NCBI RefSeq assembly: GCF_004103715.1
Contig: NZ_CP035282.1
Coordinates: 796,673-860,672, forward strand
Direction of reading: 5' to 3'
DNA from: Acidilutibacter cellobiosedens
GTDB taxonomy: Bacteria > Bacillota > Clostridia > Tissierellales > Acidilutibacteraceae
DNA: 64,000 bases
Shown here piece by piece: positions 33,510 through 56,263 of the stretch (positions are counted from its first letter, which is position 1; the number at the start of each line of letters is the position of its first letter). A program made the position numbers and the translations under genes. The notes below the pieces were generated by a model, which did no database searches, had not been told where the DNA came from, and saw only the letters and a list, made by a program, of their open reading frames with translations.

Positions 33510-33566
33510 TTGAAATTATATACCGTTTTGAATATAATATAAGTAACAGCGATGAAAGCGCTTTTA
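33510..33566 (+). promoter_or_regulatory. Promoter and cre site of PTS cluster 1
   Basis: TTGAAA (33510-33515), 17 bases and TATAAT (33533-33538) make a near-consensus promoter. TGAAAGCGCTTTTA (33553-33566) matches the CcpA cre pattern with one mismatch and lies just past the expected transcription start. CcpA bound there would block transcription when preferred sugars are present (known mechanism, inferred here). Confidence 0.8.
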
Positions 33567-33590: not shown

Positions 33591-34082
33591 ATGGCAGACA
33601 TTCGTCTAATAAGAGTAGACTTCAGATTGATGCATGGACAGGTTATTGCAAACTGGTTGAATCAAGTAGATGGAAATGCAATTATGATTGTCAACAAACA
33701 ATTATCGAAAGATCCGTTTATGAATAATGTATACAAAATGGCGGCACCAAAGGGAGTAAAAGTAAGTATTTTTGATCTTGATACAGCACTGGAAAAGATT
33801 AAAAGTGAAAAATATACTTCTAATAGAAAATTGATTGTATTGTTTAAATCAGTTACAGATGCCAAAGAAGCGTATGAGAAGGGTTTCCCTATCAGCGAAC
33901 TTCAAGTTGGAGGCCTTGGTTCAGGGCCAGATCGGGTACAGATTACAAATCAAATTTATCTAAACAAGGAAGATACAGATAAATTACTTGATATGAATGG
34001 AAAGGGGGTAAAGGTTTATTTACAGGCTGTACCAAAGGAATCTGAACTTTCAATTGATAAAGCAGCAGAAAAAGTCAAATAA
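33591..34082 (+). CDS. PTS mannose/fructose/sorbose-class EIIB
   Basis: 163 residues. The phosphorylated His is His15 in RVDFRLMHGQV, the signature of this class. The cytoplasmic subunit takes phosphate from EIIA and passes it to the sugar in the EIIC/EIID channel. AAGGAGAGG precedes the ATG. First gene of the cre-controlled operon with EIIC and EIID downstream; its EIIA is separated, at 40670. Confidence 0.95.
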   Translation: MADIRLIRVDFRLMHGQVIANWLNQVDGNAIMIVNKQLSKDPFMNNVYKMAAPKGVKVSIFDLDTALEKIKSEKYTSNRKLIVLFKSVTDAKEAYEKGFPISELQVGGLGSGPDRVQITNQIYLNKEDTDKLLDMNGKGVKVYLQAVPKESELSIDKAAEKVK

Positions 34083-34116
34083 TTGAAAGAAAAAAAGTTA
34101 TAAGGAGGAAAGAAGG

Positions 34117-34881
34117 ATGAATAATTTCATTCAAGCACTATTAATTGGCTTGGTGTACTGGCTGGGAACCAATCGTTTATGGTATGGAACAACGACAGTT
34201 ATCAGACAACCATTAGTAATGGCAGTACCCTTAGGACTAATTATGGGAGATATTCAAACAGCAATGATAATCGGCGGGACATTACAGCTGATATATTTGG
34301 GAGCCATTGCACCCGGAGGAAATATTCCGGCAGATGAGGCATTTGCAGCATGTGTAGCTATTCCCATTGCAATTAAAACAGGGATTAGCGCAGAAGTAGC
34401 AGTATCATTGGCAGTGCCGGTAGGACTGTTAGGTGTACTTCTTGATACATTACGTAGGACATATGCATCTGCATTCGTAAGACTGGCAGATAAAGCAGCA
34501 GAAAAGGGAGACGGAAAAGCATTAAGAAGAGCATGCTTTTGGTATCCTTTCTTTGCAGCAATTCCGTTACGTGTGATTCCGGCATTCTTAGCAGCATATT
34601 TTGGAGCTGACGCGGTACAGGCATTTATGAACTGGATACCGGCTTGGGTAACAAACGGATTGCAAGTAGCAGGAGGAGTACTTCCGGCATTAGGATTTGC
34701 GGTAACAATGATTGTAATAGGAAAGAAATCATTATTACCATACTTTTTAGTAGGATTTATAATAATGGCATATTCGGGAATTAGTACTATTGGAATCGCA
34801 ATATTAGGTTTATGTATTGCATTGCTACAGGGAAACTTTGCCCCAGCAACAGCAAACGGAGGTGAATCAGATGACGACTAA
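34117..34881 (+). CDS. PTS mannose/fructose/sorbose-class EIIC
   Basis: 254 residues, hydrophobic, with the class signatures GDIQTAMIIGGTLQLIYLGAIAPGGNIPADEAFA and KAAEKGDGKALRRACFWYPF. It forms the membrane channel with EIID. AAGGAGG lies 8 bases before the ATG. Its end overlaps the EIID start by 11 bases. Confidence 0.95.
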   Translation: MNNFIQALLIGLVYWLGTNRLWYGTTTVIRQPLVMAVPLGLIMGDIQTAMIIGGTLQLIYLGAIAPGGNIPADEAFAACVAIPIAIKTGISAEVAVSLAVPVGLLGVLLDTLRRTYASAFVRLADKAAEKGDGKALRRACFWYPFFAAIPLRVIPAFLAAYFGADAVQAFMNWIPAWVTNGLQVAGGVLPALGFAVTMIVIGKKSLLPYFLVGFIIMAYSGISTIGIAILGLCIALLQGNFAPATANGGESDDD

Positions 34882-35731
34882 TGTAGCGGAAAGAAAGCTT
34901 ACAAGGAAAGACGTGATAAAGGCATGGTTGAGATATTATACAGTAACTGAAGTAGGAAACAGTTATGAACGACTGACAGCTTTGGCATTCGGATTTGGAA
35001 TGGCACCGGTACTGGAAAAGTTATATGGAGATAATCCGGAACAGCTTAAAGAAGCATATAAACGTCATGTTTCGTTTTATAATTCAGAAGGAACATGGGG
35101 TTCACTGATAGTGGGAATAGCCATGGCGCTGGAAGAAGAAAACGCAAATAAGGTGTCCAAGCCGGAATATGATTCGGCAACAGATGAAGAAAATGCAACA
35201 GAGATGATAACGAATATTAAGATAGGTTTGATGGGACCTTTGGCAGGAATCGGAGACTCCATCGATATGGGAACTATACGACCAATTTTCCTATCTTTGT
35301 TTATACCGTTAGCAGCAAAAGGGAACATTCTTGGAGGAATCGGACCGTTAGTACTATTTGGAGTGTACATGTCATTCTTGGCATACTTCTTGGTGAGACA
35401 AGGATATACATTAGGACGAGACTCGGTAGCAAGTGTATTACAGTCGGGAAGAATCAGTAAATTAATAGACTCGGCAGGAGTATTGGGTCTGTTCATGATG
35501 GGAGCATTGAGTGCATCCTATGTAAAACTAACGACAAAGGTAGTTATCAATACAAGTGGAGGAGCATTTAAGATCCAAGATACATTGGATGGAATGTTAC
35601 CGAAGTTATTACCTTTAGCAGTAGTATTTCTAATTTATTATTATATTAAAAAGAGAGGTCCGAAATACCTGAGAATTGTAGGTGCGATTATAGGATTTTC
35701 ATTGTTGTTGTCATTATTAGGTATCGTTTAA
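34871..35731 (+). CDS. PTS mannose/fructose/sorbose-class EIID
   Basis: 286 residues. KDVIKAWLRYYTVTEVGNSYERLTALAFGFGMAPVLEKLYG and FYNSEGTWGSLIVGIAMALEEE are typical, as is MGPLAGIGDSIDMGTIRPIFLSL. EIID exists only in this PTS class and completes the membrane part. ATG 34871 is 6 bases after GGAGGTG; a longer reading from 34817 lies inside EIIC. Followed by a hairpin at 35757. Confidence 0.94.
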   Translation: MTTNVAERKLTRKDVIKAWLRYYTVTEVGNSYERLTALAFGFGMAPVLEKLYGDNPEQLKEAYKRHVSFYNSEGTWGSLIVGIAMALEEENANKVSKPEYDSATDEENATEMITNIKIGLMGPLAGIGDSIDMGTIRPIFLSLFIPLAAKGNILGGIGPLVLFGVYMSFLAYFLVRQGYTLGRDSVASVLQSGRISKLIDSAGVLGLFMMGALSASYVKLTTKVVINTSGGAFKIQDTLDGMLPKLLPLAVVFLIYYYIKKRGPKYLRIVGAIIGFSLLLSLLGIV

Positions 35732-35756
35732 TTTTTAAAGTATACATGAACAATTA

Positions 35757-35785
35757 AATAGGTACATGTTAAACATGTACCTATT
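35757..35785 (+). terminator. Hairpin after EIID, weak terminator or processing site
   Basis: AATAGGTACATGTT and AACATGTACCTATT form a 14-bp palindrome with a minimal loop and only a weak T-rich tail (ATTATTAATTTT). It may partly separate PTS from enzyme expression or stabilise the upstream mRNA. Confidence 0.6.
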
Positions 35786-35806
35786 ATTAATTTTGGGAGG
35801 AATATA

Positions 35807-36787
35807 ATGAAAAAGGTTGCAATTGTAAATGCTAACAGTTTTGGACGCTATTTTCCGGAATTTATTGATATTTTGAAAGAGAATGTAGGAGAAGTCACAA
35901 GATTTAAATTTCCGTCCGATATTTCTGCAGAGGAACTTTCAAAAAAACTACAGGGATATTCATATCTGATTGTTGGAACAACTCCTAAATTTTCAAAGAA
36001 ATTCTTTGAAAAGACCCCGTCAGTAGAATATATTGCCCGTTTCGGCATTGGTTACGATAATGTAAATGTGTTGGGAGCAAAAGAATTTGGCGTAGTTGCA
36101 TCTAATATTCCCGGATATTTAGAAAAAGAAGATGTGGCAGAACAGGCAGTTGCTTTGGTGTTGGCTTTGTGTAAACATATAGTTAATGCTAATGCGGCGG
36201 TTCGTAAAGATGAGTGGAATGTCGATCGTGGAAGATTTTTAGGACGTAGAATCAATGGAAAGACAGTAGGAATCTTAGGATTTGGTAATATCGGTTCAAC
36301 TTTTGCAAGAATATTATCTAAAGGATTTCAGTGTAAGATTTTAGCATATGATCCCTATTTATCAGCAGAGGAAATTGAAAGACGTGGAGGAGAAAAGCGA
36401 GAATTAAATGATTTGTTAAAAGAAAGTGATATTGTTTCATTGCATATTAACTTGACTAAGGAAAGCTATCATTTGATTTCGAAGGAAAAGCTGTCCCTTA
36501 TGAAAAAAGATGCAATTCTTATAAATACTGCACGGGGTGAATTGGTAGATGAAGAAGCTGTTGCCCAGGCATTAGAAAACCGAGAACTCGCTGGTTATGG
36601 TGCAGATGTAATTGAAAATGAACCCCCTAAAATGGATCATCCCCTTTTACCTCTTGAATATGCAATTATTACGCCTCATGTGGGGACATACAATGCTGAA
36701 TGTAACCGCCAAATGTGTCAGAGCGTTGTTGATGATGTGATCCGTGTTTATCATAATGAAAAACCCAGTATCGTACTTGAAAAATAA
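35807..36787 (+). CDS. D-isomer-specific 2-hydroxyacid dehydrogenase (1 of 3 in cluster)
   Basis: 326 residues, NAD-dependent. Rossmann motif GILGFGNIGSTFARIL, catalytic Arg in NTARGELVDEEAV, Glu in ENEPP and His in ITPHVGTYN. EYIARFGIGYDNVNV is the typical N-terminal segment. It oxidises or reduces a 2-hydroxy/2-oxo acid pair; which one is unknown. GGGAGG precedes the ATG. The two other paralogues (41769 and 43523) are clearly divergent, so they probably act on different intermediates or stereoisomers. Confidence 0.9.
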   Translation: MKKVAIVNANSFGRYFPEFIDILKENVGEVTRFKFPSDISAEELSKKLQGYSYLIVGTTPKFSKKFFEKTPSVEYIARFGIGYDNVNVLGAKEFGVVASNIPGYLEKEDVAEQAVALVLALCKHIVNANAAVRKDEWNVDRGRFLGRRINGKTVGILGFGNIGSTFARILSKGFQCKILAYDPYLSAEEIERRGGEKRELNDLLKESDIVSLHINLTKESYHLISKEKLSLMKKDAILINTARGELVDEEAVAQALENRELAGYGADVIENEPPKMDHPLLPLEYAIITPHVGTYNAECNRQMCQSVVDDVIRVYHNEKPSIVLEK

Positions 36788-36804
36788 AGGAGGGAAAATA
36801 AAAC

Positions 36805-37512
36805 ATGGAACAAAATAACAAATTAGAAGAACTTAAGCAATTTGACACTCCAAGTATTACAAATGTGGTAGCTACTTATCCTGATAAAGACTATTGTCTT
36901 GGATTATATCATCCATGGAAAGGAAAGTGGTATACAGATCAAACATTGAAATGCATGTATCCTGAATTGGGCAGAACGGTAGGATATGCGGTAACCTGCA
37001 CTTATGGCCTTCCCGACCCGAACTTTACAAATTTGAAATTTGCCGATGTGTTGAGGGCAGTTGCAAAAATGTCAAAACCGGTTGTTTTAATTGTAAAACA
37101 GAACATGCCGGAAGAAATTAAAAATATCAATGGCATGCTGGGGGGCAATATGATGACTGCATTAAAATCTGCTGGTGTAGTCGGCGTTATTTCTGATGGC
37201 CCTTCCAGGGATATTGATGAAATTCGGCCTTTAAAAATGCAGTACATGTTAACAGGTATTACGGCCGGACATGGCAAATTTGCTGTACATTCTGTTAACA
37301 CTCCCGTTGAAGTATGCGGCATGCAGGTTGCCCCCGGAGATATCGTTCATATGGACGAAAATGGCGCAGTAAAATTTCCGGAAGAATGTTTAGATGATGT
37401 AATTAAATATGCAGAAAGGCTAAGAGAAATTGAATCGAAACGTCAGGGAATGATGAGAAATACTAATGATGTAGAAGAATTAATTAAGATTATGAGTGGA
37501 TTATACGACTAA
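36805..37512 (+). CDS. RraA/HMG-aldolase-like protein
   Basis: 235 residues of the RraA-like fold. The core GGNMMTALKSAGVVGVISDGPSRDIDEI contains the usual metal/substrate motif G-x2-x-D-G-x-x-R-D. The later VNTPVEVCGMQVAPGDIVHMDENGAVKFP is the conserved second half. Bacterial members include 4-hydroxy-4-methyl-2-oxoglutarate aldolase/oxaloacetate decarboxylase and metal-dependent hydratase-like enzymes; true RraA inhibits RNase E. In a catabolic cluster an aldolase or decarboxylase role is likelier (inference). AAAGGAGGG precedes the ATG. Confidence 0.8.
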   Translation: MEQNNKLEELKQFDTPSITNVVATYPDKDYCLGLYHPWKGKWYTDQTLKCMYPELGRTVGYAVTCTYGLPDPNFTNLKFADVLRAVAKMSKPVVLIVKQNMPEEIKNINGMLGGNMMTALKSAGVVGVISDGPSRDIDEIRPLKMQYMLTGITAGHGKFAVHSVNTPVEVCGMQVAPGDIVHMDENGAVKFPEECLDDVIKYAERLREIESKRQGMMRNTNDVEELIKIMSGLYD

Positions 37513-37535
37513 TCAAGTTAAAGGAGAATAATATA

Positions 37536-38603
37536 ATGGAAATTCCAAAAGAAACTAAATACGGTTGTTTGACATCAAAATTTCATGCGGAAGTTCGTAT
37601 GATTTCTCTTCCTGACGAATTAAAATCAGGAGAAATTTTGATTCGCCAGGAAGCATGTAACATCTGTACTGCAGATTATACACAATGGCTTGGACAACGG
37701 GAACATCGAGGTTATCCCATGGCCGGTGGACATGAAGGCGTGGGAACTGTAATTGCAAAGGCCGATGATGTATATGAATTTAATTTGGGAGATCGAATCG
37801 CTTTTATTTTTCCATATTGTGGGCATTGTAAAAACTGTAAAATGGGAAGACAGGATGAATGTACATGCCGAGAAAAAGTAAAGCTTCCGTTAAAGGGGAC
37901 CCAACAATATTTTGGATTTTCACAATACATGGTTCGTCATTCAAGATACTGTGTAAAAATTTCAAGAAAATTGCCATTGCCGGAAGCATGTTTTGTAGAA
38001 CCTGTTGCCACAGTATTAAATGCTCAGAACAATTTAACCCATCGCCTTGGAGATACGGTTCTTGTTATCGGAGGAGGAACTATGGGTTTATTGAATGCTG
38101 AAGTTGAGAGATTACGCGGATCAAAGGTAATTGTCTCAGAGGTGATGGAGGAAAAATTAAAAAAAGCTGAAGAGATGGGATTTGAAACTATAAATCCGCA
38201 GGAGACAGATATAAAAACTGTGATTGATGAATTTACCGATCATAAAGGTCTGGATATAGTCATTCTTGCAGTTGGAAATCAGGTTGCTTTGAATCAAGCC
38301 TTAGATCTTATTAAGAAGAAAAACGGGCAGATATTGTTCTTCTCAGCCTCATATCCGTCAGCTGAATTGAATATACCGGCAAATAGGATCCACTATGACA
38401 AGTTAAGACTTCTTGGGGCATTTAATTCAACATTGATTGATTTCTATCAAGCATCGAGATTATTGGGGAACAAATTAGTCAATGTGAGCAAGCTGGTTGA
38501 TTCAATATATGATTTAAACGATATACAAGAAGCTTTCAAACGAGCCAGCGAACCGAACACTTATCGTGTCTGCGTTAAATTGAACGAATGGGAGGATGAA
38601 TAG
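37536..38603 (+). CDS. Zinc-dependent medium-chain alcohol/polyol dehydrogenase
   Basis: 355 residues. The N-terminal catalytic domain has CNICTADYTQWLG and GGHEGVGTV. The structural zinc loop is CGHCKNCKMGRQDEC, four Cys. The Rossmann motif is LVIGGGTMGLLNAEV. It belongs to the sorbitol/threonine dehydrogenase branch. It would oxidise a secondary alcohol, perhaps on the PTS product or a dephosphorylated intermediate. AAAGGAG precedes the ATG. Confidence 0.9.
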   Translation: MEIPKETKYGCLTSKFHAEVRMISLPDELKSGEILIRQEACNICTADYTQWLGQREHRGYPMAGGHEGVGTVIAKADDVYEFNLGDRIAFIFPYCGHCKNCKMGRQDECTCREKVKLPLKGTQQYFGFSQYMVRHSRYCVKISRKLPLPEACFVEPVATVLNAQNNLTHRLGDTVLVIGGGTMGLLNAEVERLRGSKVIVSEVMEEKLKKAEEMGFETINPQETDIKTVIDEFTDHKGLDIVILAVGNQVALNQALDLIKKKNGQILFFSASYPSAELNIPANRIHYDKLRLLGAFNSTLIDFYQASRLLGNKLVNVSKLVDSIYDLNDIQEAFKRASEPNTYRVCVKLNEWEDE

Positions 38604-38606
38604 TAC

Positions 38607-39458
38607 ATGATAGTGTCTTTTAAGGATATGTTGCAGAATGCAACGGATGGGAAATATGCAGTAGGAGCCTTTAATATCGGGAATAAAGATATTTTAGATG
38701 CGACTATTGCTGCAGCAGAAGAAAAAAAGATTCCTGCAATTGTTGCCGTATCTGTGCCGGAAATGAATTTTTTAGGGGATGAATTTTTTTCTTATGTAAA
38801 AGTACGCCTGAAAAAATCGGAAGCCCAATTTTGTTTACACCTGGACCATGGTTCAAATTTGGAAGATATAAAACGAGCTATCAATAATGGCTGTACTTCG
38901 GTAATGATTGATGCATCAAATAAAAGCTTTGAGGAAAATGTAAATATTACTAAAGAAGTAGTTGATTATGCACATTCATTAAATGTTTATGTTGAAGGAG
39001 AATTAGGAACAATTGGAAATACAGGTAATAGTTCCTGCGGAGAAGGGCTTGATACTTCAATCATCTATACAGATCCGGATAAGGCAAAAGAATTCTGTGA
39101 ATTGACAGGAGTAGATGCTTTAGCAGTTGCCATCGGAACTTCCCACGGAATGTATCCGAAAGGGAAAACGCCAAAACTAAGAATTGATATTCTTCAAAAA
39201 ATTCGTGAAAGAACATCAGCTTTTCTTGTATTACATGGAGGTTCAGGTAACGCTGATGAAGAAGTGATTGAATCCATAAGGCATGGGATTTCTAAAATAA
39301 ATATTTCCAGTGAAGTGAAAAAAGCATATTTTGAAGAACTTTATAAGTATTTGGGAGAATACCCTGATTCGGTAAAAACTCAGGTGGTGTTTCAGTCTCC
39401 TATAAAAGCGGCAAAAGATAAAATTGTGGAGAAAATGAAGATGTTTATGAAGAACTGA
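38607..39458 (+). CDS. Class II ketose-bisphosphate aldolase (FBA/tagatose-bisphosphate type)
   Basis: 283 residues, zinc-dependent. Metal and phosphate motifs are CLHLDHGSNLE, VEGELGTIGN, GTSHGMYPKG and LHGGSGN, the last three near the DHAP site. It splits a ketose phosphate to DHAP (or a related ketone) and an aldehyde. A paralogue of identical length lies at 52470 in cluster 2. GGGAGG is about 10 bases before the ATG, which comes 3 bases after the dehydrogenase stop. A terminator follows. Confidence 0.9.
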   Translation: MIVSFKDMLQNATDGKYAVGAFNIGNKDILDATIAAAEEKKIPAIVAVSVPEMNFLGDEFFSYVKVRLKKSEAQFCLHLDHGSNLEDIKRAINNGCTSVMIDASNKSFEENVNITKEVVDYAHSLNVYVEGELGTIGNTGNSSCGEGLDTSIIYTDPDKAKEFCELTGVDALAVAIGTSHGMYPKGKTPKLRIDILQKIRERTSAFLVLHGGSGNADEEVIESIRHGISKINISSEVKKAYFEELYKYLGEYPDSVKTQVVFQSPIKAAKDKIVEKMKMFMKN

Positions 39459-39468
39459 GATAGTTGGG

Positions 39469-39508
39469 AATGCCCTAAAAACATTTTTTAACGTTTTTAG
39501 GGCATTTT
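39469..39508 (+). terminator. Intrinsic terminator after the aldolase
   Basis: AATGCCCTAAAAAC pairs perfectly with GTTTTTAGGGCATT, then Ts. It ends the first half of cluster 1 before the convergent gene. Confidence 0.88.
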
Positions 39509-39548
39509 TGTTATACAGGATTGCGGAGATGAAAATTGGGAAACTTAA

Positions 39549-40478
39549 TTATAATAACTTTAAAACATTAGAAACAACAAATTTGATTTTATCAGGATCA
39601 ATATCAATATCCCTTCTCGTTCCGATATTTTCACAGACAAATTTATTGCCTGCCTGGTTACCTCCGGCGAAAATTATACAGTGATCATATATATTAGCAC
39701 TGCTGTAATTTGTCTGGTTTTTTTCAAATCGGAGAATTGATGAGTCAAGTTTTTTAAGTTCATCTTTAAAAGTATTACTGTAATTAACCGCTATATTTTT
39801 TCCTGACCCGATACAGTCAAGCAGGATAAATCGCTTTCTATGCGCAGAATCTCCTAAAAATTCTTTTATCATTTGGTCTCCCATATTGTTGATACATCCA
39901 AAGTCAGTAAGAACAAAGGCAACATTTTTTTGTTGCTTAGGTGTTAAAGTGGAAGCGATTGCAAGGCAACCAATAACTCCCGAAGTATTTCTGTTTAAAT
40001 TATGAGAATTGGGGATTCCTTTTGAATAATGAACAATTAGATAAATACCAATGATATAGACCGAAAGCGTCATAAAATCTTTCCAACTGAAAAATCCTTC
40101 TAACCATTTTATCCTTAAAAAGTGAGCTGAAAATATAAAACAAAGGACAGTAATGAAAAGTAATGGGATAAATGCAGTCAGGCTATATAAAAGTTTTCTG
40201 TTTCTTATATCAAAAGGATAATATTTGTAGAATCCAAAATTTTTTGACGGTGTATCATAATTTGCCATAATTATGGTATCTGCCTTCTTGACATCTCCGA
40301 TAATTAAGTCAATCGCTTTTCCTTTTGAACCTTGCGGTGAAAGTATTGAAGTTTTATATCCCATACATTTAAATTCGGGTTCAATATTATTAATAAATCT
40401 GATTTTTTCTTTTTTTCGAAACCTTTTTTTAGCTATTACTCCATATTTTAATATGGAATCTTTCATATCAAAATTCAT
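39549..40478 (-). CDS. Membrane protein with degenerate M28-peptidase-like domain
   Basis: 309 residues with two central membrane segments (SLTAFIPLLFITVLCFIFSA and the region LSVYIIGIYLIVHYS). Around them are pieces that resemble M28 zinc aminopeptidases: IMANYDTPSKN where the family has a His-Asp, LNRNTSGVIGCLAIA where it has a D-N-x-S-G-V, VLTDFGCINNMG and LLDCIGSG. The usual metal His is Asn, so activity is doubtful. It is on the opposite strand and splits PTS cluster 1 between EIIBCD and EIIA. AGGAGG lies before the ATG. Confidence 0.55.
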   Translation of the reverse strand: MNFDMKDSILKYGVIAKKRFRKKEKIRFINNIEPEFKCMGYKTSILSPQGSKGKAIDLIIGDVKKADTIIMANYDTPSKNFGFYKYYPFDIRNRKLLYSLTAFIPLLFITVLCFIFSAHFLRIKWLEGFFSWKDFMTLSVYIIGIYLIVHYSKGIPNSHNLNRNTSGVIGCLAIASTLTPKQQKNVAFVLTDFGCINNMGDQMIKEFLGDSAHRKRFILLDCIGSGKNIAVNYSNTFKDELKKLDSSILRFEKNQTNYSSANIYDHCIIFAGGNQAGNKFVCENIGTRRDIDIDPDKIKFVVSNVLKLL

Positions 40479-40563
40479 AAGGCAAGCCTCCTTTTTTCTA
40501 CACTAAAATTATATCATACTTAAATCCAAAATGAAATAAAATTCTAAATATAATATTTTTAAC

Positions 40564-40616
40564 TTGAAAAATTATTCTATTCATGATAGTATAGAAATGA
40601 ATTGAGAGCGCTTACT
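40564..40616 (+). promoter_or_regulatory. Promoter and second cre site of PTS cluster 1
   Basis: TTGAAA (40564-40569), 17 bases, TAGTAT (40587-40592). TGAGAGCGCTTACT (40603-40616) fits the cre pattern and again sits just past the expected start. The second half of the cluster therefore seems to have its own CcpA-controlled promoter. Confidence 0.75.
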
Positions 40617-40669
40617 TATGAAAATAGAAAGTTTTAGAAAGGAGGAAGTGACTTAAGTCATGAAGTAAA

Positions 40670-41110
40670 ATGATTGGAATTTTAATAGTAACCCATGGAA
40701 AAATGGCAGAAGGTATTGCTGACAGTGCGAGGATGATTATGGGCAATAATGAACAATTTGATTCAATTGGATTATTTCCTGATAAGGATTTAGATCAGTT
40801 TAAAGCTGATATCAAAAAGAAATTTTTAGAGTTGGATACTGGTGATGGTGTAATCATATTCGTTGATTTATTTGGAGCTTCACCATATAACATTACAGCC
40901 TTAAATATACACGAATTATTAAGTGAGAAGAAAAAAGTTAGAGTGATTACAGGTGTAAATCTTCCAATGGTGATTGAAGTATTGAATATGAGAAACATCG
41001 AAGAGAATATTGATTCTTTATATAAATCTTGTTTGACTACAGGAAAAGACGGCATCAAAGAATTATTAGAAGAAATGGCTTCAAATGAATGTGAAGATGA
41101 TGAGGAGTAG
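40670..41110 (+). CDS. PTS mannose/fructose-class EIIA
   Basis: 146 residues, with the phosphoryl-accepting His9 in LIVTHGKMAEG and the conserved FVDLFGASPYN and VITGVNLPMVIEV. It takes phosphate from HPr and hands it to EIIB at 33591. The ribosome site is odd: AAAGGAGG lies 25 bases upstream. Between them are a palindrome TGACTTAAGTCA and a two-codon ORF (ATG AAG TAA) that ends 1 base before the real ATG, suggesting reinitiation. Confidence 0.92.
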   Translation: MIGILIVTHGKMAEGIADSARMIMGNNEQFDSIGLFPDKDLDQFKADIKKKFLELDTGDGVIIFVDLFGASPYNITALNIHELLSEKKKVRVITGVNLPMVIEVLNMRNIEENIDSLYKSCLTTGKDGIKELLEEMASNECEDDEE

Positions 41111-41126
41111 AAAGGAGTAAAAAATA

Positions 41127-41732
41127 ATGGATATCAGTAAGCATGTTCAAGCTGTTGAAACTTTCAAAGAGATTACTGAAATGGAATTAAGTGAATTTGT
41201 AAAGAATCTAAGTACAGAGGAATTAAATCCGGCTTACAATTTGATTGTTAAGGCTAAAAAGAATGGAAATCGTGTTCATGTTACCGGAATTGGGAAACCT
41301 TCCTATGTAGCTGGTTACATTGCTTCTTTATTTTCGTCTACCGGTACTCCTGCCTATGTTCTTCATGGGACCGAGGCGATTCATGGATCCAGCGGGCAAG
41401 TAAAAGAAGGGGATATAGTAATTGCAATTTCTAACAGTGGTGAAACAGAAGAACTTATAAAAACAGTCACTACAGTTAAAAATAACGGAGCAAAAGTTAT
41501 ATCGGTTTCAGGAAACAGAGAATCATGGTTGGCTAAACAGGGAGATGCTTTCTTATTTGCAGGCGTAGATAAAGAAGGAGGACCTTTAAACAAAGCACCT
41601 CGTATTTCATACTTGGCCGAAATTGTTGTTTTGCAAGCTTTATCTATTGCACTTCAAAATGAAGAGAATATTGATTTACAGGATTATAAAAAATGGCATC
41701 CAGGCGGAGCCTTGGGAAAATCAATTAAATAG
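41127..41732 (+). CDS. SIS-domain sugar-phosphate isomerase
   Basis: 201 residues with a single SIS domain and no CBS domains. GIGKPSYVAGYIASLFSSTGTPAYVLHGTEAIHG and IAISNSGETEELI are the phosphosugar-binding motifs of the KdsD/KpsF and 6-phospho-3-hexuloisomerase groups; KWHPGGALGKSI ends it as in KdsD. It would interconvert an aldose and ketose phosphate, for example arabinose-5-phosphate and ribulose-5-phosphate. A metabolic role within the PTS route is likelier than LPS synthesis here (inference). Confidence 0.85.
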   Translation: MDISKHVQAVETFKEITEMELSEFVKNLSTEELNPAYNLIVKAKKNGNRVHVTGIGKPSYVAGYIASLFSSTGTPAYVLHGTEAIHGSSGQVKEGDIVIAISNSGETEELIKTVTTVKNNGAKVISVSGNRESWLAKQGDAFLFAGVDKEGGPLNKAPRISYLAEIVVLQALSIALQNEENIDLQDYKKWHPGGALGKSIK

Positions 41733-41768
41733 GACAATTTATAATAAGAAGAAAAGAGGCGTTAGACA

Positions 41769-42704
41769 GTGAAAGGAAAAATTTTAATAACACCAAGGGC
41801 ATTTGCTAAGAATGGAATGAAGGAAATTGAAAAATTAAAACAACAAGGATGGGAAATTCATCTGAATGATACAGGCAAATCATATAGCCATGAAGAATTT
41901 GTAAAATATGCGAAAGATGTTGATGGTATCATTATTGGCGTTGATATTGCAGATCGTGAGATGCTTAAGGGCTGTAAAAATTTGAAAGCTATTGCCAAGT
42001 ATGGTGTTGGTGTTGATAATATTGATTTAGATACTGCAAAAGAATTAGGAATCAAAATTTCAAGGACTGTCGGTTCTAACTCGGTGTCAGTTGCAGAGCA
42101 TACAATAGCATTAATGTTTGCATGTGCTAAACGTATTGTTGACGGAGCAATTAACGTTAAAAATGGAAAATGGAACAAGAACTACGAAATAGAACTTATG
42201 GGTAAAAAAATCGGTATTATTGGCTTTGGCAATATTGGAAGACATGTAGGCAGGCTTGCTCAGGGTATCGGCATGAATGTATGTGCGTATGATGTATTTC
42301 CTATTAATGAGAAATATGCAAAGGAACATAATATCCAAATATGTTTGCTGGATGAACTGGTTAGAACCAGTGACGTTATTACTATTCATACGCCCCTGAC
42401 ATCTGAAACAAAGGATATGATCAATGCCGAGCGTTTAAAAGAAATGAAAACGACAGCAATTGTGATCAATGCAGCCCGAGGCGGAATTATAAATGAAGCT
42501 GATCTGTATGAAGCATTAGTGAACAAAGAAATTTTTGCTTCCGGATTTGATGTTTTCTCAACGGAGCCACCAAAAACTGATGAGAAACTGTTACGTCTGG
42601 ACAACTTTATTTTAACTCCTCATGCTGCTTCAAAAACTTTAGAAGCTGATATGAATACGATAAAGATGTCAATTACAAACCTTATTACAGATATCGAAGG
42701 ATAA
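41769..42704 (+). CDS. D-isomer-specific 2-hydroxyacid dehydrogenase (2 of 3)
   Basis: 311 residues, closest in pattern to phosphoglycerate dehydrogenases without the ACT domain. KAIAKYGVGVDNIDLD, GIIGFGNIGRHVGRLAQG, catalytic Arg in NAARGGIINEADL, Glu in FSTEPP and His in LTPHAASKT. GTG start 41769 with GAGG about 10 bases upstream. Together with the paralogues at 35807 and 43523 it points to several 2-oxo acid steps in one pathway. Confidence 0.9.
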   Translation: MKGKILITPRAFAKNGMKEIEKLKQQGWEIHLNDTGKSYSHEEFVKYAKDVDGIIIGVDIADREMLKGCKNLKAIAKYGVGVDNIDLDTAKELGIKISRTVGSNSVSVAEHTIALMFACAKRIVDGAINVKNGKWNKNYEIELMGKKIGIIGFGNIGRHVGRLAQGIGMNVCAYDVFPINEKYAKEHNIQICLLDELVRTSDVITIHTPLTSETKDMINAERLKEMKTTAIVINAARGGIINEADLYEALVNKEIFASGFDVFSTEPPKTDEKLLRLDNFILTPHAASKTLEADMNTIKMSITNLITDIEG

Positions 42705-42722
42705 GTGAGGAAGGAAATAAAA

Positions 42723-43526
42723 ATGAAAAACAGATTAAGAGAATGTTTAGAAGGTAAAAAAAATATTATAGCTACACGTATTAACAGTACATGGCCAATG
42801 ATAGCGGAAGTTGTAGGAGCCACAGGCTTATATGATTATATTGAGTTTTTGGGCGAATATGCTCCGTATAACCAATATGATTTAGAAAATATTGCAAGGG
42901 CATGTGAACTTCATAATATGTCATGCATAATTAAAATAGATTATGCCAACCGCGACTATGTAGCTCAAAAGGCATTGGCTTCAGGATTTCAAGGTATTCT
43001 GTTTACTGATCACAAAACAGCAGAAGAGGTAGAAAATACATTAAAAATGGTAACACCGTCGATTCCCCATGAGGGTGGAAGACTTGGATATGTCAGCCGT
43101 CGTTTCTATAAGAACGAAGGTTTTAAAAATCAGTTGACCTATGCAGCCGAAGTAAAAAAATGTGTTATGGGATTTATGATTGAAAAAGTGGAAGCAGTAA
43201 AAAATATTGAGGAGATATGTCAAGTTCCCGGGGTTGACTTTGTTCAGTTTGGACCTGCTGACTTTTCTATGAATAGTGGATTCAACGCAAAAGAAGAAGT
43301 TGAGAAAGTAAGAGAAGCGGAAGAAAAGGTAATTAAAACTGCATTGAAATATGGAGTTAGTCCGAGGGCTGAAATTAACTCTGCCGAAGAAGCAGAACGC
43401 TATATCAAATTGGGGGTAAGACATTTTGCCTTAGGTTCAGAATTGAAAATTGAGAAGATGTTCTGGACAGACAATGGTGAATGTTTAATGGGAAAACTCA
43501 ACGATTTGAGAGGAGAAAAAATATGA
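42723..43526 (+). CDS. HpcH/HpaI family aldolase
   Basis: 267 residues of the class II pyruvate-type aldolase family (2-keto-3-deoxy-glucarate/4-hydroxy-2-oxo-heptanedioate aldolase). IEFLGEYAPYNQYDLENI, the Arg/Glu region MIEKVEAVKNIEEI and VDFVQFGPADFSMNSG (metal Asp) are visible. It would cleave a 2-keto-3-deoxy acid to pyruvate and an aldehyde, or a related ketol acid. ATG 42723 follows GAGGAAGG; the longer frame from 42705 begins before that site. Its stop overlaps the next start as ATGA. Confidence 0.85.
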   Translation: MKNRLRECLEGKKNIIATRINSTWPMIAEVVGATGLYDYIEFLGEYAPYNQYDLENIARACELHNMSCIIKIDYANRDYVAQKALASGFQGILFTDHKTAEEVENTLKMVTPSIPHEGGRLGYVSRRFYKNEGFKNQLTYAAEVKKCVMGFMIEKVEAVKNIEEICQVPGVDFVQFGPADFSMNSGFNAKEEVEKVREAEEKVIKTALKYGVSPRAEINSAEEAERYIKLGVRHFALGSELKIEKMFWTDNGECLMGKLNDLRGEKI

Positions 43527-44473
43527 AAATTGTAGTATTGGATGGATATACTTTGAATCCGGGAGATTTAAACTGGAATCAAATCAAAACTTTGGGAGAT
43601 ATTATTATTTATGATAGAACAGATTCAGCTGACATAATCTCGCGTATCGGAGATGCAGAAGTTGTATTGACAAATAAAACTCCTATTCGAAAAGAAACGA
43701 TGAAAGCATGTCCTAATATAAAACTGATTAGTGTTTTAGCTACGGGATATGATGTAATTGATATTGAAGCAGCAAAACAACTGGGAATTGCAGTTTGTAA
43801 TGTTCCGGCTTACGGCACATATTCTGTTGCTCAATTTGCAATTTCATTGTTGTTAGAAATTTGTTACCATGTAGGATATCATGACAATGCGGTTAAAGAA
43901 GGAAGATGGGAAAACAGTGCTGACTGGTGTTTCTGGGATAAGCCGTTATTGGAATTGTATGGCAAGACTATGGGTATTATTGGTTATGGTCGAATCGGCC
44001 AGACGACAGGAAGAATTGCAAGGGCCCTTGGCATGAAAATCATTGCTAATGATAAGCATGAAAATCCTACTCTAAAAGATGTTGAATATGTTTCTTTTGA
44101 TGATTTGTGTTCCCGTGCAGACGTAATTGTACTTCATTGTTCCCTAACAAAAGAAAATCAGCAGTTCATTGACAAGAAAGCAATTGCCAAGATGAAAAAG
44201 AATGCAATTATTATAAACAATGCTCGAGGCCAACTGATTAATGAAAAAGATTTGGCGGATGCATTAAATGAGGGCAGAATATATGCTGCAGGAATTGATG
44301 TTGTTTCAAAGGAACCAATTGAAAAAGACAATCCGCTACTGAAAGCAAAAAACTGTTATATTACACCTCATATGTCTTGGGGATCGGTGGAAGCTCGAAA
44401 GCGTATTATGGATATGACTTACGAAAATATTCAAGGATATCTGAATGACAAAACTGTAAATAGAATAGTGTAA
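43523..44473 (+). CDS. 2-hydroxyacid dehydrogenase, glycerate-dehydrogenase-like (3 of 3)
   Basis: 316 residues. ISVLATGYDVIDIEAAKQLGI, GIIGYGRIGQTTGRIARALG, catalytic Arg in NNARGQLINEKDL, Glu in SKEPI and His in ITPHMSWGS. The H-M-S-W form is the HprA/glycerate (hydroxypyruvate reductase) subtype. ATG 43523 overlaps the HpcH stop and follows AGGAG. It would interconvert hydroxypyruvate or glyoxylate with glycerate or glycolate, useful downstream of the aldolase steps (inference). Confidence 0.9.
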   Translation: MKIVVLDGYTLNPGDLNWNQIKTLGDIIIYDRTDSADIISRIGDAEVVLTNKTPIRKETMKACPNIKLISVLATGYDVIDIEAAKQLGIAVCNVPAYGTYSVAQFAISLLLEICYHVGYHDNAVKEGRWENSADWCFWDKPLLELYGKTMGIIGYGRIGQTTGRIARALGMKIIANDKHENPTLKDVEYVSFDDLCSRADVIVLHCSLTKENQQFIDKKAIAKMKKNAIIINNARGQLINEKDLADALNEGRIYAAGIDVVSKEPIEKDNPLLKAKNCYITPHMSWGSVEARKRIMDMTYENIQGYLNDKTVNRIV

Positions 44474-44527
44474 GAGATGAAATACAAAAGGAAATTTAGA
44501 CAATGTCGCTTAAAGGAGGATTATTAA

Positions 44528-45418
44528 ATGATAAATATTGAGGGAATTATTACACCTATTGTTACACCATTCAATAGAGATAAAGATCAGACGATTAACT
44601 ATGATGCATTAAAACAACTAATTGATCGTTTAATTGAAAAAGGTGTAAAAGGGATTTTTATTTTAGGAAGTTATGGTGAATTCCACGTTGTCGATGATGA
44701 TGAAAAATTGGAATTTGCAAAGAAGACGGTTGAAATTGTGAACCATCGTGTACCTGTTTATGTTGGTACCGGCGGAAACAGCACACGTAATGTGATCCGC
44801 TTATCAGAAAAAATCGAAAAAGTTGGTGCAGATGCGGTATCTATTATCACCCCATATTTTGTTTCACCTAATGATAAAGAAATTATAAACCACTACAAAA
44901 CAATAGCGGCAAGTATAGATCTTCCAATTATTTTATACAATATTCCAAAGAACACAAAAATTAACTTGTCAAAAGAAATTGTTGCTGAATTGGCTAAAGT
45001 TGAGAATATTAAGGCAATCAAAGACAGCTCGGGTGACATGGAAAACTTGAAAGGTTATGTGGAAGCTGCTAAGGGAACGGATATGAAAGTTCTAATAGGT
45101 TCTGATTCTAAAATAGCTCCCGCAATTCGTTTAGGGGCAGCCGGCGCAATTGCCGGTACAAGTAATCTTATTACCGAAGTAGATGTTAATTTATATAATG
45201 CATTAAAATCAGGTAATGATGAAGAGGCAGATCGTTTACAGCAGGAAATTGAAGTATTGCGCAGTGCATTAAAGTTAGGTACGATACCTTCAGTTATGAA
45301 GCGTTCCCTTGAATTTACCGGTATTCCTGTTGGACCTGCACGTCTTCCGGTTATGGAAACTACGCCGGAAGTTGATGAAAAAATTAAAGAAATGCTTAAG
45401 CACTATAATTTGATTTAA
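44528..45418 (+). CDS. Dihydrodipicolinate synthase family aldolase/lyase
   Basis: 296 residues. The Schiff-base Lys165 is in IKAIKDSSGD and Tyr137 in ILYNIPKN. The usual GTTGE motif is GSYGEF, so this is not a plain DapA; sugar-acid lyases such as KDG or 2-keto-3-deoxy-galactonate aldolases and N-acetylneuraminate lyase vary here. It probably cleaves to or condenses pyruvate. AAAGGAGG precedes the ATG. Last enzyme gene of cluster 1, with a terminator after it. Confidence 0.85.
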   Translation: MINIEGIITPIVTPFNRDKDQTINYDALKQLIDRLIEKGVKGIFILGSYGEFHVVDDDEKLEFAKKTVEIVNHRVPVYVGTGGNSTRNVIRLSEKIEKVGADAVSIITPYFVSPNDKEIINHYKTIAASIDLPIILYNIPKNTKINLSKEIVAELAKVENIKAIKDSSGDMENLKGYVEAAKGTDMKVLIGSDSKIAPAIRLGAAGAIAGTSNLITEVDVNLYNALKSGNDEEADRLQQEIEVLRSALKLGTIPSVMKRSLEFTGIPVGPARLPVMETTPEVDEKIKEMLKHYNLI

Positions 45419-45421
45419 AGA

Positions 45422-45476
45422 AATACTCTTTTCTGGTTTTAATCTTATTCAGATTTCTACCAGAAAAGAGTATTTT
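45422..45476 (+). terminator. Intrinsic terminator ending the cluster 1 enzyme operon
   Basis: AATACTCTTTTCTGGT pairs with ACCAGAAAAGAGTATT (16 bp), then Ts. Confidence 0.9.
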
Positions 45477-45485
45477 TATGTATAT

Positions 45486-45514
45486 TTGATTTTCTTGTTC
45501 ATTTCAATTATACT
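45486..45514 (+). promoter_or_regulatory. Sigma-A promoter of the rpiR-type gene
   Basis: TTGATT (45486-45491), 17 bases, TATACT (45509-45514). The regulator therefore appears to be transcribed separately from the enzymes. Confidence 0.55.
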
Positions 45515-45665
45515 GATATTGATTTAATTTTCAGTTTAATATAAGTAGACGGTGAAATAATATTCCAATCTAATAAATGATGAAATTATTTATTCCGGAA
45601 TTAATTAATTTATTCAATTGTGATTTATTTTACATTTAAAATTAATGAGAAAGGAAGTGGTGTCT

Positions 45666-46520
45666 TTGAGTTGTTTAATACAAATTAAAGAAGGATATTC
45701 GTTGCTCAGCAAAAATGAAAAAAAAGTAGCCGATTATATTTTGTCTCATCCTTTGGAAGTATATGATTATTCTGTTCAGCAGCTTGCAGAATCTTCGGGA
45801 ACCAGCCCGTCTTGTATTATACGTTTTGTTAAAAAAATCGGCTTTGAAAGTTACACTCAGTTTCGGCTGATATTAGCAAAGGAATCGGAACGTCAGCTGA
45901 TGTCCTCAGATGAGTTAATAGAAGAGGTGACTAAAAGTGATAGTATTCCGGAAATGCTGCAGAAATTTAAAAATTTTAATATAAACACAATTAATAAAAC
46001 CTTTGAGAATTTAGACGAGGTAAAAATAAAAAAAGCTGTTGATATTTTAAGAAAAGCAAAAAAAATCTTTGTTGTCGGAGAAGGGACTTCGTCTCTTGTG
46101 GCTCAAGACCTTTCACATAAATTTATTTTGGTCGGAATCGATTCTTGCTGTCATTCGGATGCACATACACAGTTGACTCAGGTAAATGATTTAACTCCGG
46201 AAGATGCAATCGTTATCTTTTCATATTCCGGTTCGACACAATTAGCAAATTTTGCATTAAAACGTGCAAATGAATTAAATGTTCCGTCTGTTTCCGTTAC
46301 ACAAATTTCCAAATCATATTTGGCACGAAAAGCTACGGTACCAATATATGTTCCGGCTCTGGAAACCGAACGTAAGATCGGGTCAGTTGCTTCCAGGATT
46401 TCTACATCAATAGTATCGGATATTCTTTATTTAGGGACTGTTCAAAAGAATATTGACCAGATAAAGGAAAAAGTAACCGAGACGAGGAAGCTGTTAAGCC
46501 AATTAAAAGTGGATATATGA
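45666..46520 (+). CDS. RpiR-family transcriptional regulator (HTH + SIS)
   Basis: 284 residues. The N-terminal HTH_6 is LSKNEKKVADYILSHPLEVYDYSVQQLAESSGTSPSCIIRFVKKIGF. The SIS domain has FVVGEGTSSLVAQDLSHKF and IVIFSYSGSTQLANFALK, which bind a sugar phosphate. TTG 45666 has AAGGAAG 8 bases upstream and gives the usual family N-terminus; the frame extends to ATG 45645. Adjacent to cluster 1 and so its likely regulator, with the phosphorylated substrate or an intermediate as inducer. Confidence 0.9.
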   Translation: MSCLIQIKEGYSLLSKNEKKVADYILSHPLEVYDYSVQQLAESSGTSPSCIIRFVKKIGFESYTQFRLILAKESERQLMSSDELIEEVTKSDSIPEMLQKFKNFNINTINKTFENLDEVKIKKAVDILRKAKKIFVVGEGTSSLVAQDLSHKFILVGIDSCCHSDAHTQLTQVNDLTPEDAIVIFSYSGSTQLANFALKRANELNVPSVSVTQISKSYLARKATVPIYVPALETERKIGSVASRISTSIVSDILYLGTVQKNIDQIKEKVTETRKLLSQLKVDI

Positions 46521-46614: not shown

Positions 46615-47952
46615 CTATTCCTTTACAGCATCATCCTTGTCCGAATATTTTTTCTTACAATAATAATATACGGGCAGACCAATTAATGTCAAAGCAAGTC
46701 CTAACATGGAACCCTTAAATGAGTCTCTGATTGTTACGAATATTAGATATAGACCTCCAATACCTCCTATTATTGGTATTATGGGATAAAGAGGTACTTT
46801 ATACAGTTTTTCATCTCTGGGATATTTCTTTCTCAGTATAAATATGCTGAATACTCCGAGAGTAAAGAATATCCATATAACAAATATACACAAATCGGTA
46901 ATTGTATTAAAATTGCCTAACAGAATAAATATTATCGAAATCACTGTCTGAAATATTATCGAATTAACCGGTGTACCTAATTTTGGATTTACACGATTCA
47001 AAATTTTATATTTGGGAAGTTGCTTTTTTTGCCCCATTGCAAAGGCTACTCTTATCCCACTGGCTAATTGGGCATTTAGAGCAGCAAAGGAAGACAACAA
47101 CATTCCTATTGTTATCAAAGTGGTTCCTCCGCGGCCAAAGAGTTTTTTGGAAACATCTACTCCTATACTTTCGGAAGCGGCTACTTGGGGTGCAGACATT
47201 ACATTAAATATTGCCGTATTAAATAGAGCATAAACTATTATTACAAAGGCAAGACCTATTATTATAGCTTTAGGCAAATTTTTTTCCGGGTGAATCATCT
47301 CGTCGCCAAGAGTACAAGTATTCATCCAACCATCATAAGACCATAATACACCGAGAAGGGCAACTCCCGTTCCGGCACCCTTTATAATTCCACTGGTTGC
47401 AAAGCTGATATCATGGGCGGTACCGTTAATTAACCCAAAGATAATTATGGCAGCCATCGGAACTAATTTTCCTATGGTTGCAATGCCTTGCATCTGAAGG
47501 CTGAGCTTTGTGGATATTATCTGCAATATTACTATTAATAAGGTAATAAATATTGCAAATAATTTTAATTCCCATTTACCCATCGGTATAAAATAGGTTG
47601 CAAATGTAGCACAAGCTATTGCCAAAGCTGCTGAACCACCCGGACTTGAAATAATCACTTCTATCCATCCATACAAAAAACCGACGACATCATTGTATAA
47701 TTCCACTAAATAAGTATAAAGCCCTCCTACTTTAGGAATATATGCAGCAATTTCTGATATGGTCAATGCACTGCACATTGAAATTAATCCTCCGACAATC
47801 CAAATGATCAACGCGGATGCTGATGAACCCATATTAACTAATACTACCGCAGGCTTTAAAAATATTCCTGTGCCGATTACAAATCCTATTACATATGCAA
47901 TACCTTCCCGTAACCCGAGATTTCTTTTTAACTTTCCTTCTTCCTGATGCAC
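46615..47952 (-). CDS. APC-family amino acid permease (LAT/SteT-like)
   Basis: 445 residues, about 12 membrane segments. The N-terminal GLREGIAYVIGFVIGTGIFLKPAVVL carries the GxGIF substrate-backbone motif of APC transporters. GWIEVIISSPGGSAALAIACATF and YDGWMNTCTLGDEM are as in LAT/SteT-type exchangers. GTG start at 47952 follows GGAGGGG with 8 bases between; the longer reading to 48015 has no ribosome site. Substrate unknown; it may feed the AlaDH-type enzyme upstream on the same strand (inference). Confidence 0.88.
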   Translation of the reverse strand: MHQEEGKLKRNLGLREGIAYVIGFVIGTGIFLKPAVVLVNMGSSASALIIWIVGGLISMCSALTISEIAAYIPKVGGLYTYLVELYNDVVGFLYGWIEVIISSPGGSAALAIACATFATYFIPMGKWELKLFAIFITLLIVILQIISTKLSLQMQGIATIGKLVPMAAIIIFGLINGTAHDISFATSGIIKGAGTGVALLGVLWSYDGWMNTCTLGDEMIHPEKNLPKAIIIGLAFVIIVYALFNTAIFNVMSAPQVAASESIGVDVSKKLFGRGGTTLITIGMLLSSFAALNAQLASGIRVAFAMGQKKQLPKYKILNRVNPKLGTPVNSIIFQTVISIIFILLGNFNTITDLCIFVIWIFFTLGVFSIFILRKKYPRDEKLYKVPLYPIIPIIGGIGGLYLIFVTIRDSFKGSMLGLALTLIGLPVYYYCKKKYSDKDDAVKE

Positions 47953-47996
47953 TAATAATTCCCCTCCTTTTATATTATCAATTTTAATTAAGATAC

Positions 47997-48092
47997 TTAT
48001 AAGAAAAGCTTCCATTGAAGAATTATAATGTAGCTTTTCTTGAAACCCAATTAACGGGAAATTTATATTAATGAAATTTTGATTTCCCTATG
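47997..48092 (+). repeat. Dispersed two-hairpin intergenic repeat, copy 2
   Basis: Hairpin A pairs AAGAAAAGCT (48001-48010) with AGCTTTTCTT (48032-48041). The core TGAAACCCAATTAACGG follows. Hairpin B pairs GGGAAAT (48056-48062) with ATTTCCC (48082-48088). A second copy follows directly in tandem. Confidence 0.8.
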
Positions 48093-48203
48093 GGTTATAA
48101 GAAAAGCTTCTATCAAAGTATAAAGTATAATGTAGTTTTTCCTGAAACTCATTTACGGAAAGTCCTCTTAGTCAATGTTTATAAGTGAGGACTTTCCTAT
48201 TTG
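48093..48203 (+). repeat. Dispersed two-hairpin intergenic repeat, copy 3 (tandem)
   Basis: The same order: GGTTATAAGAAAAGCTTCTA, TATAATGTAGTTTTTCCTGA, core TGAAACTCATTTACGG, then hairpin B as GGAAAGTCCTC (48157-48167) with GAGGACTTTCC (48187-48197). The arm sequence of hairpin B differs from copy 2, but pairing is kept. TTATAAGAAAA recurs at 48204, the start of a third, truncated unit. Confidence 0.8.
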
Positions 48204-48220
48204 TTATAAGAAAATATTTG

Positions 48221-49865: not shown

Positions 49866-49896
49866 TTAAGATTTATTAAAAAGGAAGGTGTTGCAT

Positions 49897-51969: not shown

Positions 51970-51985
51970 ATGCGGAGGTATTAAT

Positions 51986-52441: not shown

Positions 52442-52469
52442 AATAATTTCTGGATTTTAAGGAGGCGGT

Positions 52470-53321: not shown

Positions 53322-53324
53322 AAA

Positions 53325-54011: not shown

Positions 54012-54026
54012 TTGGAGGTAAGAAAA

Positions 54027-54548: not shown

Positions 54549-54574
54549 TATAAAAAAGAAAGTGGAGTGTTAAC

Positions 54575-54859: not shown

Positions 54860-54880
54860 AAATAAGGCGGTGAGTTATTT

Positions 54881-56242: not shown

Positions 56243-56263
56243 TTTAGATTGGTATGGTGAAAG

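Follow-up and report, generated by a model that had tools for sequence, protein, structure and literature searches.

What is taken up and degraded by a bacterium in which the genes of a mannose-class permease are gathered with three 2-hydroxyacid dehydrogenases (HDHs) and three types of aldolase? The question is raised by a cluster of about 13 kb (positions 33591-46520) residing in the window, i.e. the whole stretch of 64,000 nucleotides of Acidilutibacter cellobiosedens DNA (NZ_CP035282.1, positions 796,673 to 860,672) that was analysed. The list of open reading frames (ORFs) assigns to the cluster 14 plus-strand genes and 1 minus-strand gene. According to Pfam and NCBIfam, a first run includes IIB, IIC, IID, HDH1, RraA-like, zinc alcohol dehydrogenase (Zn-ADH) and class II fructose-bisphosphate aldolase (FBA)-type genes, a second run IIA, SIS, HDH2, HpcH-like, HDH3 and DapA-family genes; an RpiR gene comes last. 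Distances between genes inside each run vary from -11 to 75 bases. The mannose-class phosphotransferase system (PTS) is complete, EIIA-man, PTSIIB_sorb, EII-Sor and EIID-AGA all being over Pfam cut-offs; 12 EIIC-Sor and 14 HDH genes are found in the genome. A sequence-only reading of this DNA had listed the PTS, HDH, aldolase-type, SIS, Zn-ADH, RraA and RpiR genes. All these families have been confirmed, and the three HDHs, which it held to be divergent, share 30.5-34.8 % pairwise identity; its list missed, however, the antisense gene at 39549-40478. The interpretation then advanced is partly supported. The answer favoured here, with slightly less than even confidence, is that the cluster encodes one PTS-fed sugar-acid catabolic system built of three enzyme modules; that the substrate is a sugar acid is in itself probable. 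What is observed are the genes present, their linkage, their clades and their active-site motifs; every reaction and the substrate are deduced from families and neighbours.

Whether the two runs serve one system or two is the first point to settle. The sole IIA gene of the cluster lies in the second run, and IIB, IIC and IID in the first, a split only suggestive of one system because further EIIA-man genes reside elsewhere in the genome. A neighbourhood search for the same enzyme set, as the sequence-only reading had advised, revealed that the block is kept in a second genome, an Erysipelotrichaceae metagenome-assembled genome (MAG), hereafter G391. One of its contigs (L061, 7.2 kb) carries IID, HDH1, RraA, FBA, ZnADH, the antisense gene, HDH2 and HpcH in this order, the antisense gene lying on the opposite strand as in the focal cluster. 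FBA and ZnADH have exchanged places, and neither IIA nor SIS is found between the antisense gene and HDH2. Identity to the focal proteins is 80 % for IID, 77 % for RraA, 75 % for HpcH (173 residues, up to the contig end), 60 % for both HDH1 and HDH2, 58 % for FBA, and 41 % for the antisense gene product. GuaA, taken as housekeeping yardstick, is 56 % identical in the two genomes; the higher values of IID, RraA and HpcH may reflect either transfer or constraint. In another G391 contig (L026) HDH1, RraA, HDH2, HpcH and HDH3 are contiguous, and a further one (L093) hosts DapA (69 %), RpiR (49 %), glycerate kinase, SIS and IIA genes. The clustering is thus beyond chance, because a second genome keeps the block, including both halves. 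A palindromic AGCGCT site lies ahead of both runs, 35 bases from IIB (33556) and 64 from IIA (40606). The divided PTS subunits, the site common to both promoter regions and the linkage kept in G391 favour one system over two, as had been surmised, and the two halves very probably form one functional unit.

The three focal HDHs fall into three supported clades of a tree of 39 HDHs. The HDH1 clade (6 rows) includes genes of L061, L026, L038 and two of L098. L038, in the focal genome, brings together RpiR, the HDH, 6-phosphogluconate dehydrogenase (Gnd) and IIC-IID-IIA-IIB; L098 includes two Zn-ADH, FBA-type and 2-keto-3-deoxy-6-phosphogluconate (KDPG) aldolase genes and a PTS. The dehydrogenase of L038 and the KDPG aldolase of L098 support the earlier proposal of a phosphorylated sugar acid, which is the likely class of substrate. 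The HDH2 clade includes genes of L061, L026, L062 and L091, with L037 on the next branch. L091 is compact (IIB-IIC-IID-HDH2-SIS-IIA-regulator-IIB-DapA), and L037, again in the focal genome, has the order IIA-IIB-IIC-IID-HDH-DapA-ZnADH, its IIB, IIC and IID being 47-52 % identical to those of the focal cluster. The HDH c3405 of Escherichia coli CFT073, whose gene adjoins a SIS gene in a PTS operon, joins the HDH2 branch at 85/91. The HDH3 clade includes genes of L026, L049, L020 and L021; the best NCBIfam match of HDH3, NF005069, scores 319.5 bits versus a cut-off of 448. L021 carries glycerate kinase, 2-keto-3-deoxygluconate permease-like, RraA, HDH3 and tartronate semialdehyde reductase-like genes, L049 a DUF4147/MOFRL kinase, which we take to be of the glycerate 2-kinase family, HDH3 and HpcH, L020 HpcH, HDH3 and a sugar-diacid-type regulator. 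An HDH gene occurs within the fetched stretch in 9 of 16 RraA loci. Of the hydroxypyruvate- or glyoxylate-type products envisaged earlier, the former fit the glycerate kinase neighbours of HDH3 in L021 and L049, which point to hydroxypyruvate/glycerate C3 chemistry, but there is no specific sign of glyoxylate. The single gene of the focal genome for a glycerate kinase of the L093 family lies at 494217-495332, 302 kb before the window; another focal-genome cluster, L041, includes genes for a hydroxypyruvate isomerase-like protein and for tartronate semialdehyde reductase (in L039, L041, L042 and L045, the other genes were named by eye and BLAST only). These neighbourhoods suggest that the cluster may result from the fusion of three modules, HDH1, HDH2+SIS+DapA, and HDH3+RraA+HpcH. 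As a side observation, the G391 loci L062 and L095 carry pairs of mannitol-dehydrogenase-family genes along with KDPG aldolase and HDH genes, and L062 additionally ribulose-phosphate 3-epimerase and HpcH genes.

Active sites restrict the reactions that may be assigned. The focal HpcH-like protein matches PF03328 at 65.6 bits, versus a cut-off of 25. In an alignment of 10 members of its subfamily with E. coli GarL, His50 is changed into Tyr and Arg75 into Lys in all ten, and Asp89 is lost in all as well; we take these three to be catalytic residues. The metal ligands are retained, Glu153 in 10/10 and Asp179 in 9/9 readable members. A plain aldolase was rejected on account of the replaced His and Arg, and the subfamily likely catalyses an altered reaction. 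Three working pyruvate aldolases, as the sequence-only reading would have it, are not to be assumed. Members above 40 % identity occur in 4 of 9 further-compared genomes, with three copies in G391. A separate locus of Oscillibacter sp. PC13 (L066, 5926-15419) hosts two LarA-like, RraA, two HpcH-subfamily, DapA and Tct-like transporter genes and is, judging from these families, a non-PTS setting of the same enzymes. The SIS protein retains the GxGK and HPGG motifs, lacks CBS domains, and matches TIGR00393 at 8.4e-39 (133.8 bits, under the cut-off of 203.7); its nearest PDB entry is the single-domain phosphosugar isomerase 5uqi (3.1e-29), presumably the arabinose 5-phosphate isomerase of CFT073. 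In DapA the Arg which dihydrodipicolinate synthase (DHDPS) carries in YNVPxRT is replaced by Asn (YNIPKNT, versus YNVPGRT in the DapA of L096); the alignment excludes the L091 row. A DapA of G391 encoded next to dapB-like and aspartokinase-like genes keeps this Arg. The missing residue led us to reject a lysine-pathway DHDPS, although the TIGR00674 dapA cut-off is passed (218.4 versus 206.15 bits). DapA and SIS are best read as a putative pyruvate lyase and an aldose-phosphate isomerase acting after it.

The antisense gene sits between FBA and IIA, i.e. between the two runs. No Pfam family, M28 included, matches its product over cut-off; a chance ORF was rejected since position and orientation are kept in L061. 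Homology to membrane M28 peptidases of Clostridia (L083-L090) runs along the protein, including a two-helix membrane insert. In 7 of these 8 homologues the HxD, Asp, Glu-Glu, Asp, His set is whole, the eighth being cut before the last residue, and the two tested match Peptidase_M28 at 2e-17 and 5e-18. At the ligand and base positions the focal protein reads NDRGCDG, versus HDDEEDH in zinc-intact relatives. Judging from the alignments, the gene product is a membrane relative of M28 peptidases devoid of the zinc site. It has 31 relatives of the same kind, many encoded beside mannose-class PTS genes: the 32 zinc-less members are the window gene, L061, L082/L099, and 29 loci of Erysipelotrichales, the order of G391 (L108, the same gene as L061, is not counted). 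The site is missing in all of them. All 32 have lost the second Glu and the last His, and 29/32 the first Glu, while the first His is still there in 9/32; the bridging Asp is invariably replaced (Arg 24, Lys 5, Leu 3).

Homologues at 1e-15 or better occur in 61 of 315 Erysipelotrichales genomes. Mannose-class PTS genes were present in 15 and lacking in 5 of 20 widened loci, mostly best-scoring and hence non-random, and, within about 1.5 kb, in 4 of 9 non-widened ones. The class search returned only two zinc-less members, the window gene and L099, both in PTS clusters. In contrast, zinc-intact relatives had mannose-PTS genes in 0 of 3 widened loci and in 0 of 8 short flanks. The binomial tail for PTS linkage is 1.6e-15 (15-kb views, background of seven IIC loci per 1.9 Mb in G391), a rough figure as loci are non-random. 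In many of these PTS clusters, SIS proteins and a pair of small membrane proteins are encoded as well, which argues for a link to mannose-class PTS generally rather than to this pathway. The small ORFs (L138-L155, about 160-180 residues, membrane-protein-like) recur beside the pseudo-M28 gene in many clusters, and none of the three tested reached a Pfam cut-off. The antisense protein was modelled from its sequence alone; the resulting structure (mean predicted local distance difference test score, pLDDT, 36.7) was not used. We tentatively propose, as something short of an even prospect, that an undescribed family of membrane pseudopeptidases serves mannose-class permeases, the two-zinc site having turned into a basic pocket that would sense or bind a phosphorylated or acidic sugar and control or assemble the permease, and that the family accompanies here a new sugar-acid pathway with a non-aldolase HpcH.

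How could the enzymes work together? The chemistry of the first run would be simplest with HDH1, Zn-ADH and an aldolase forming dihydroxyacetone phosphate (DHAP), that of the C3 acid with HDH3 and glycerate kinase. EIIABCD would import an aldonate or 2-keto-aldonate as 6-phosphate, and HDH1 would interconvert 2-keto and 2-hydroxy forms. Zn-ADH would oxidise C5; starting from a 2-keto acid, this step and that of HDH1 would together be redox-neutral. The FBA-type aldolase, whose nearest subfamily is PRK08185 (NF006042, 351.5 bits, under the cut-off of 405), would split the 5-keto-aldonate 6-phosphate into DHAP and tartronate semialdehyde, a C3 acid. The latter would be turned into hydroxypyruvate, reduced by HDH3 to D-glycerate, and phosphorylated by the glycerate kinase encoded elsewhere. 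In a side branch formed by HDH2, SIS and DapA, the DapA-type lyase would release pyruvate and an aldose phosphate to be isomerised by SIS. RraA and the divergent HpcH would act at the stage of the C3 acid or of the 2-keto acid. Triose phosphate (DHAP) or pyruvate and D-glycerate would be the end products. This particular 5-keto/DHAP route is doubtful. A branched acid, the other substrate put forward by the sequence-only reading, can still be considered solely on the ground that tertiary alcohols are cleaved by aldolases of the RraA type.

Several data weigh against the system as drawn. The cluster includes no gene for a sugar-acid dehydratase, hydroxypyruvate isomerase or glycerate kinase; the kinase of the focal genome is distant and shares only 38 % identity with the one encoded on L093, itself a contig of only 3.8 kb with a stop inside the SIS frame. 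The roles given to RraA and HpcH are guesses, and the HpcH subfamily is rare, found in 3/391 genomes of the class and 1/398 of the phylum, own genome counted. The Zn-ADH of L061, 33 % identical, may not be the same enzyme. As G391 is a MAG (GC content 0.41-0.48 across the 12 stretches compared), its contigs could be misbinned; the choice of the widened pseudo-M28 loci is a limit as well. The AGCGCT site is not found in the promoter regions of other clusters tested, L061 included, and is thus no conserved operator.

Three other scenarios were weighed. The distribution of the HDHs in three clades with differing neighbours would also be expected if the PTS and the regulator were shared by two or three short pathways, each devoted to a different sugar acid, with no single linear route. 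The modules do occur apart, HDH2+SIS+DapA in L091, HDH1+ZnADH+FBA in L098, HDH3 with HpcH or RraA in L049 and L021. HDH1, RraA, HDH2 and HpcH are, however, together in two genomes (the window, and L061 and L026 of one MAG), and PTS subunits are divided over both units, so that such a funnel seems rather unlikely. The side branch could instead represent the degradation of 3-deoxy-2-ulosonic acids of the 3-deoxy-D-manno-oct-2-ulosonic acid (KDO) type: the PTS would make KDO 8-phosphate, DapA would yield pyruvate and D-arabinose 5-phosphate, SIS would convert the latter into ribulose 5-phosphate, and HDH2 would balance NADH by reducing pyruvate or a 2-keto acid. The similarity of SIS to 5uqi, its intact motifs, and the lack in DapA of the DHDPS Arg are in keeping with this scheme, as are the adjacent SIS and DapA genes of L092, which occur without HDH, and their association with a PTS in L091. 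Yet RraA, Zn-ADH, FBA, HDH1 and HDH3 would be unexplained, only SIS, DapA and perhaps HDH2 being covered; SIS and HDH genes of the CFT073 operon occur without DapA; and no such pathway emerged from a search on KDO aldolase and KDO catabolism in a literature covered in part. We consider the scheme unlikely. A glucosaminate-type route, for an amino sugar or an amino-sugar acid, is very unlikely: the use of amino sugars often involves mannose-class PTS and RpiR/SIS proteins, and several SIS proteins are found in many pseudo-M28 loci, but no deaminase, deacetylase or ammonia-lyase gene was detected in the cluster by Pfam and NCBIfam.

The one-system reading finds partial counterparts among known systems. 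Gluconate or 2-ketogluconate use through a mannose-class PTS, to which L038 and L099 are plausibly devoted, has in common with the focal cluster the mannose-class PTS, RpiR and an HDH1-clade enzyme (L038); the focal cluster lacks 6-phosphogluconate dehydrogenase and KDPG aldolase, and adds RraA, FBA, Zn-ADH, HpcH, SIS and DapA. The E. coli glucarate/galactarate route (garPLRK, garD; L067) similarly leads from a C3 acid to glycerate and its phosphorylation and employs an HpcH-family protein, whereas the focal cluster has a PTS rather than a symporter and a changed HpcH active site; none of sugar-diacid dehydratase, GarR and GarK was found in it by Pfam and NCBIfam. In CFT073 (L068, 14591-19820) PTS, MalY/PatB, SIS and HDH genes lie beside argA/amiC. 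SIS and HDH are adjacent to each other in the same order as here (37 % and about 30 % identity), but the PTS is of another class, MalY/PatB is added, and aldolase genes are missing. The Salmonella D-glucosaminate route (dga) also feeds a sugar acid through a mannose-class PTS; neither its glucosaminate-6-phosphate ammonia-lyase nor its KDPG-type aldolase was found in the cluster by the same searches. Literature on the routes, enzymes and gene pair, in which subscription journals are poorly covered, described neither this pathway nor an M28 protein linked to a PTS. The parts belong to known families, and the gene set looks undescribed. If correct, our proposals would add a sugar-acid route to those served by mannose-class PTS, offer a testable context for three orphan HDH clades and for an HpcH subfamily with changed active site, and introduce a family of pseudopeptidases, perhaps a general accessory of mannose-class permeases.

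Table 1. Genes and promoter-like sites of the cluster, in window coordinates
Feature	Position	Strand	Evidence
Promoter-like TTGAAA-17-TATAAT (33510-33538), then palindromic ATGAAAGCGCTTTTA (33552-33566)	33510..33566	+	sequence read, scan
PTS EIIB, mannose/sorbose class	33591..34082	+	PF03830 4.8e-46
PTS EIIC	34117..34881	+	PF03609 2.6e-77
PTS EIID	34871..35731	+	PF03613 9.2e-86
HDH1, 2-hydroxyacid dehydrogenase	35807..36787	+	PF02826 7e-61; clade 100/100
RraA-like protein	36805..37512	+	PF03737 1.8e-21; DGPSRD motif retained
Zinc alcohol dehydrogenase (Zn-ADH)	37536..38603	+	PF08240 2.7e-19, PF00107 4e-18; no PDB match at 1e-25
Class II FBA-type aldolase	38607..39458	+	PF01116 1.3e-85
Membrane pseudo-M28 protein (antisense gene), zinc ligands lost	39549..40478	-	alignments with zinc-intact relatives
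Promoter-like TTGAAA-17-TAGTAT (40564-40592), then TTGAGAGCGCTTACT (40602-40616)	40564..40616	+	sequence read, scan
PTS EIIA, mannose class	40670..41110	+	PF03610 5.6e-30
SIS-domain isomerase, KpsF/GutQ type without CBS domains	41127..41732	+	PF01380 1.2e-17
HDH2	41769..42704	+	PF02826 3.4e-59; clade 99/96
HpcH-like protein, divergent subfamily	42720..43526	+	PF03328 5e-18; start set at 42720
HDH3, glycerate-dehydrogenase-like	43526..44473	+	NF005069 2e-95; clade 99/98; start set at 43526
DapA-family lyase, GSYGEF motif	44528..45418	+	PF00701 9.7e-76
RpiR-family regulator	45645..46520	+	PF01418 5.3e-19, PF01380 6.2e-18

RAGCGCTY occurs at 4 places of the window (8 strand hits, versus 3.2 expected); of the two places other than those at 33556 and 40606, one lies within a hairpin upstream of IIB (33404). 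Hairpins followed by T-runs, read from the sequence downstream of FBA, of DapA and of RpiR, suggest that IIB to FBA and IIA to DapA are transcription units, the antisense gene being divergent and RpiR standing by itself. The consensus terminator scan did not list the three hairpins, and its total was at chance level (8 terminator-like elements, versus 7.3 in shuffles), as was that of the promoter scan (59 versus 55.6); both were dropped as uninformative, along with matching to catabolite-responsive elements (34 matches with at most 1 mismatch in the window, versus 29.2 expected). A perfect 13-bp inverted repeat with a 3-base loop (35757-35785), not followed by a T-run, lies in the 75 bases that separate IID from HDH1 and is a possible operator or mRNA-processing element.

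Downstream of the cluster, amino-acid permease and alanine dehydrogenase genes (46615-49342, minus strand) separate it from a second PTS cluster (49888-57441). The latter includes a PRD/EIIA regulator and EIIA, and, as assigned by eye, FBA-type aldolase, triose-phosphate-isomerase-like, YjbQ-like, gat/sga-like EIIC and class II aldolase-like genes.

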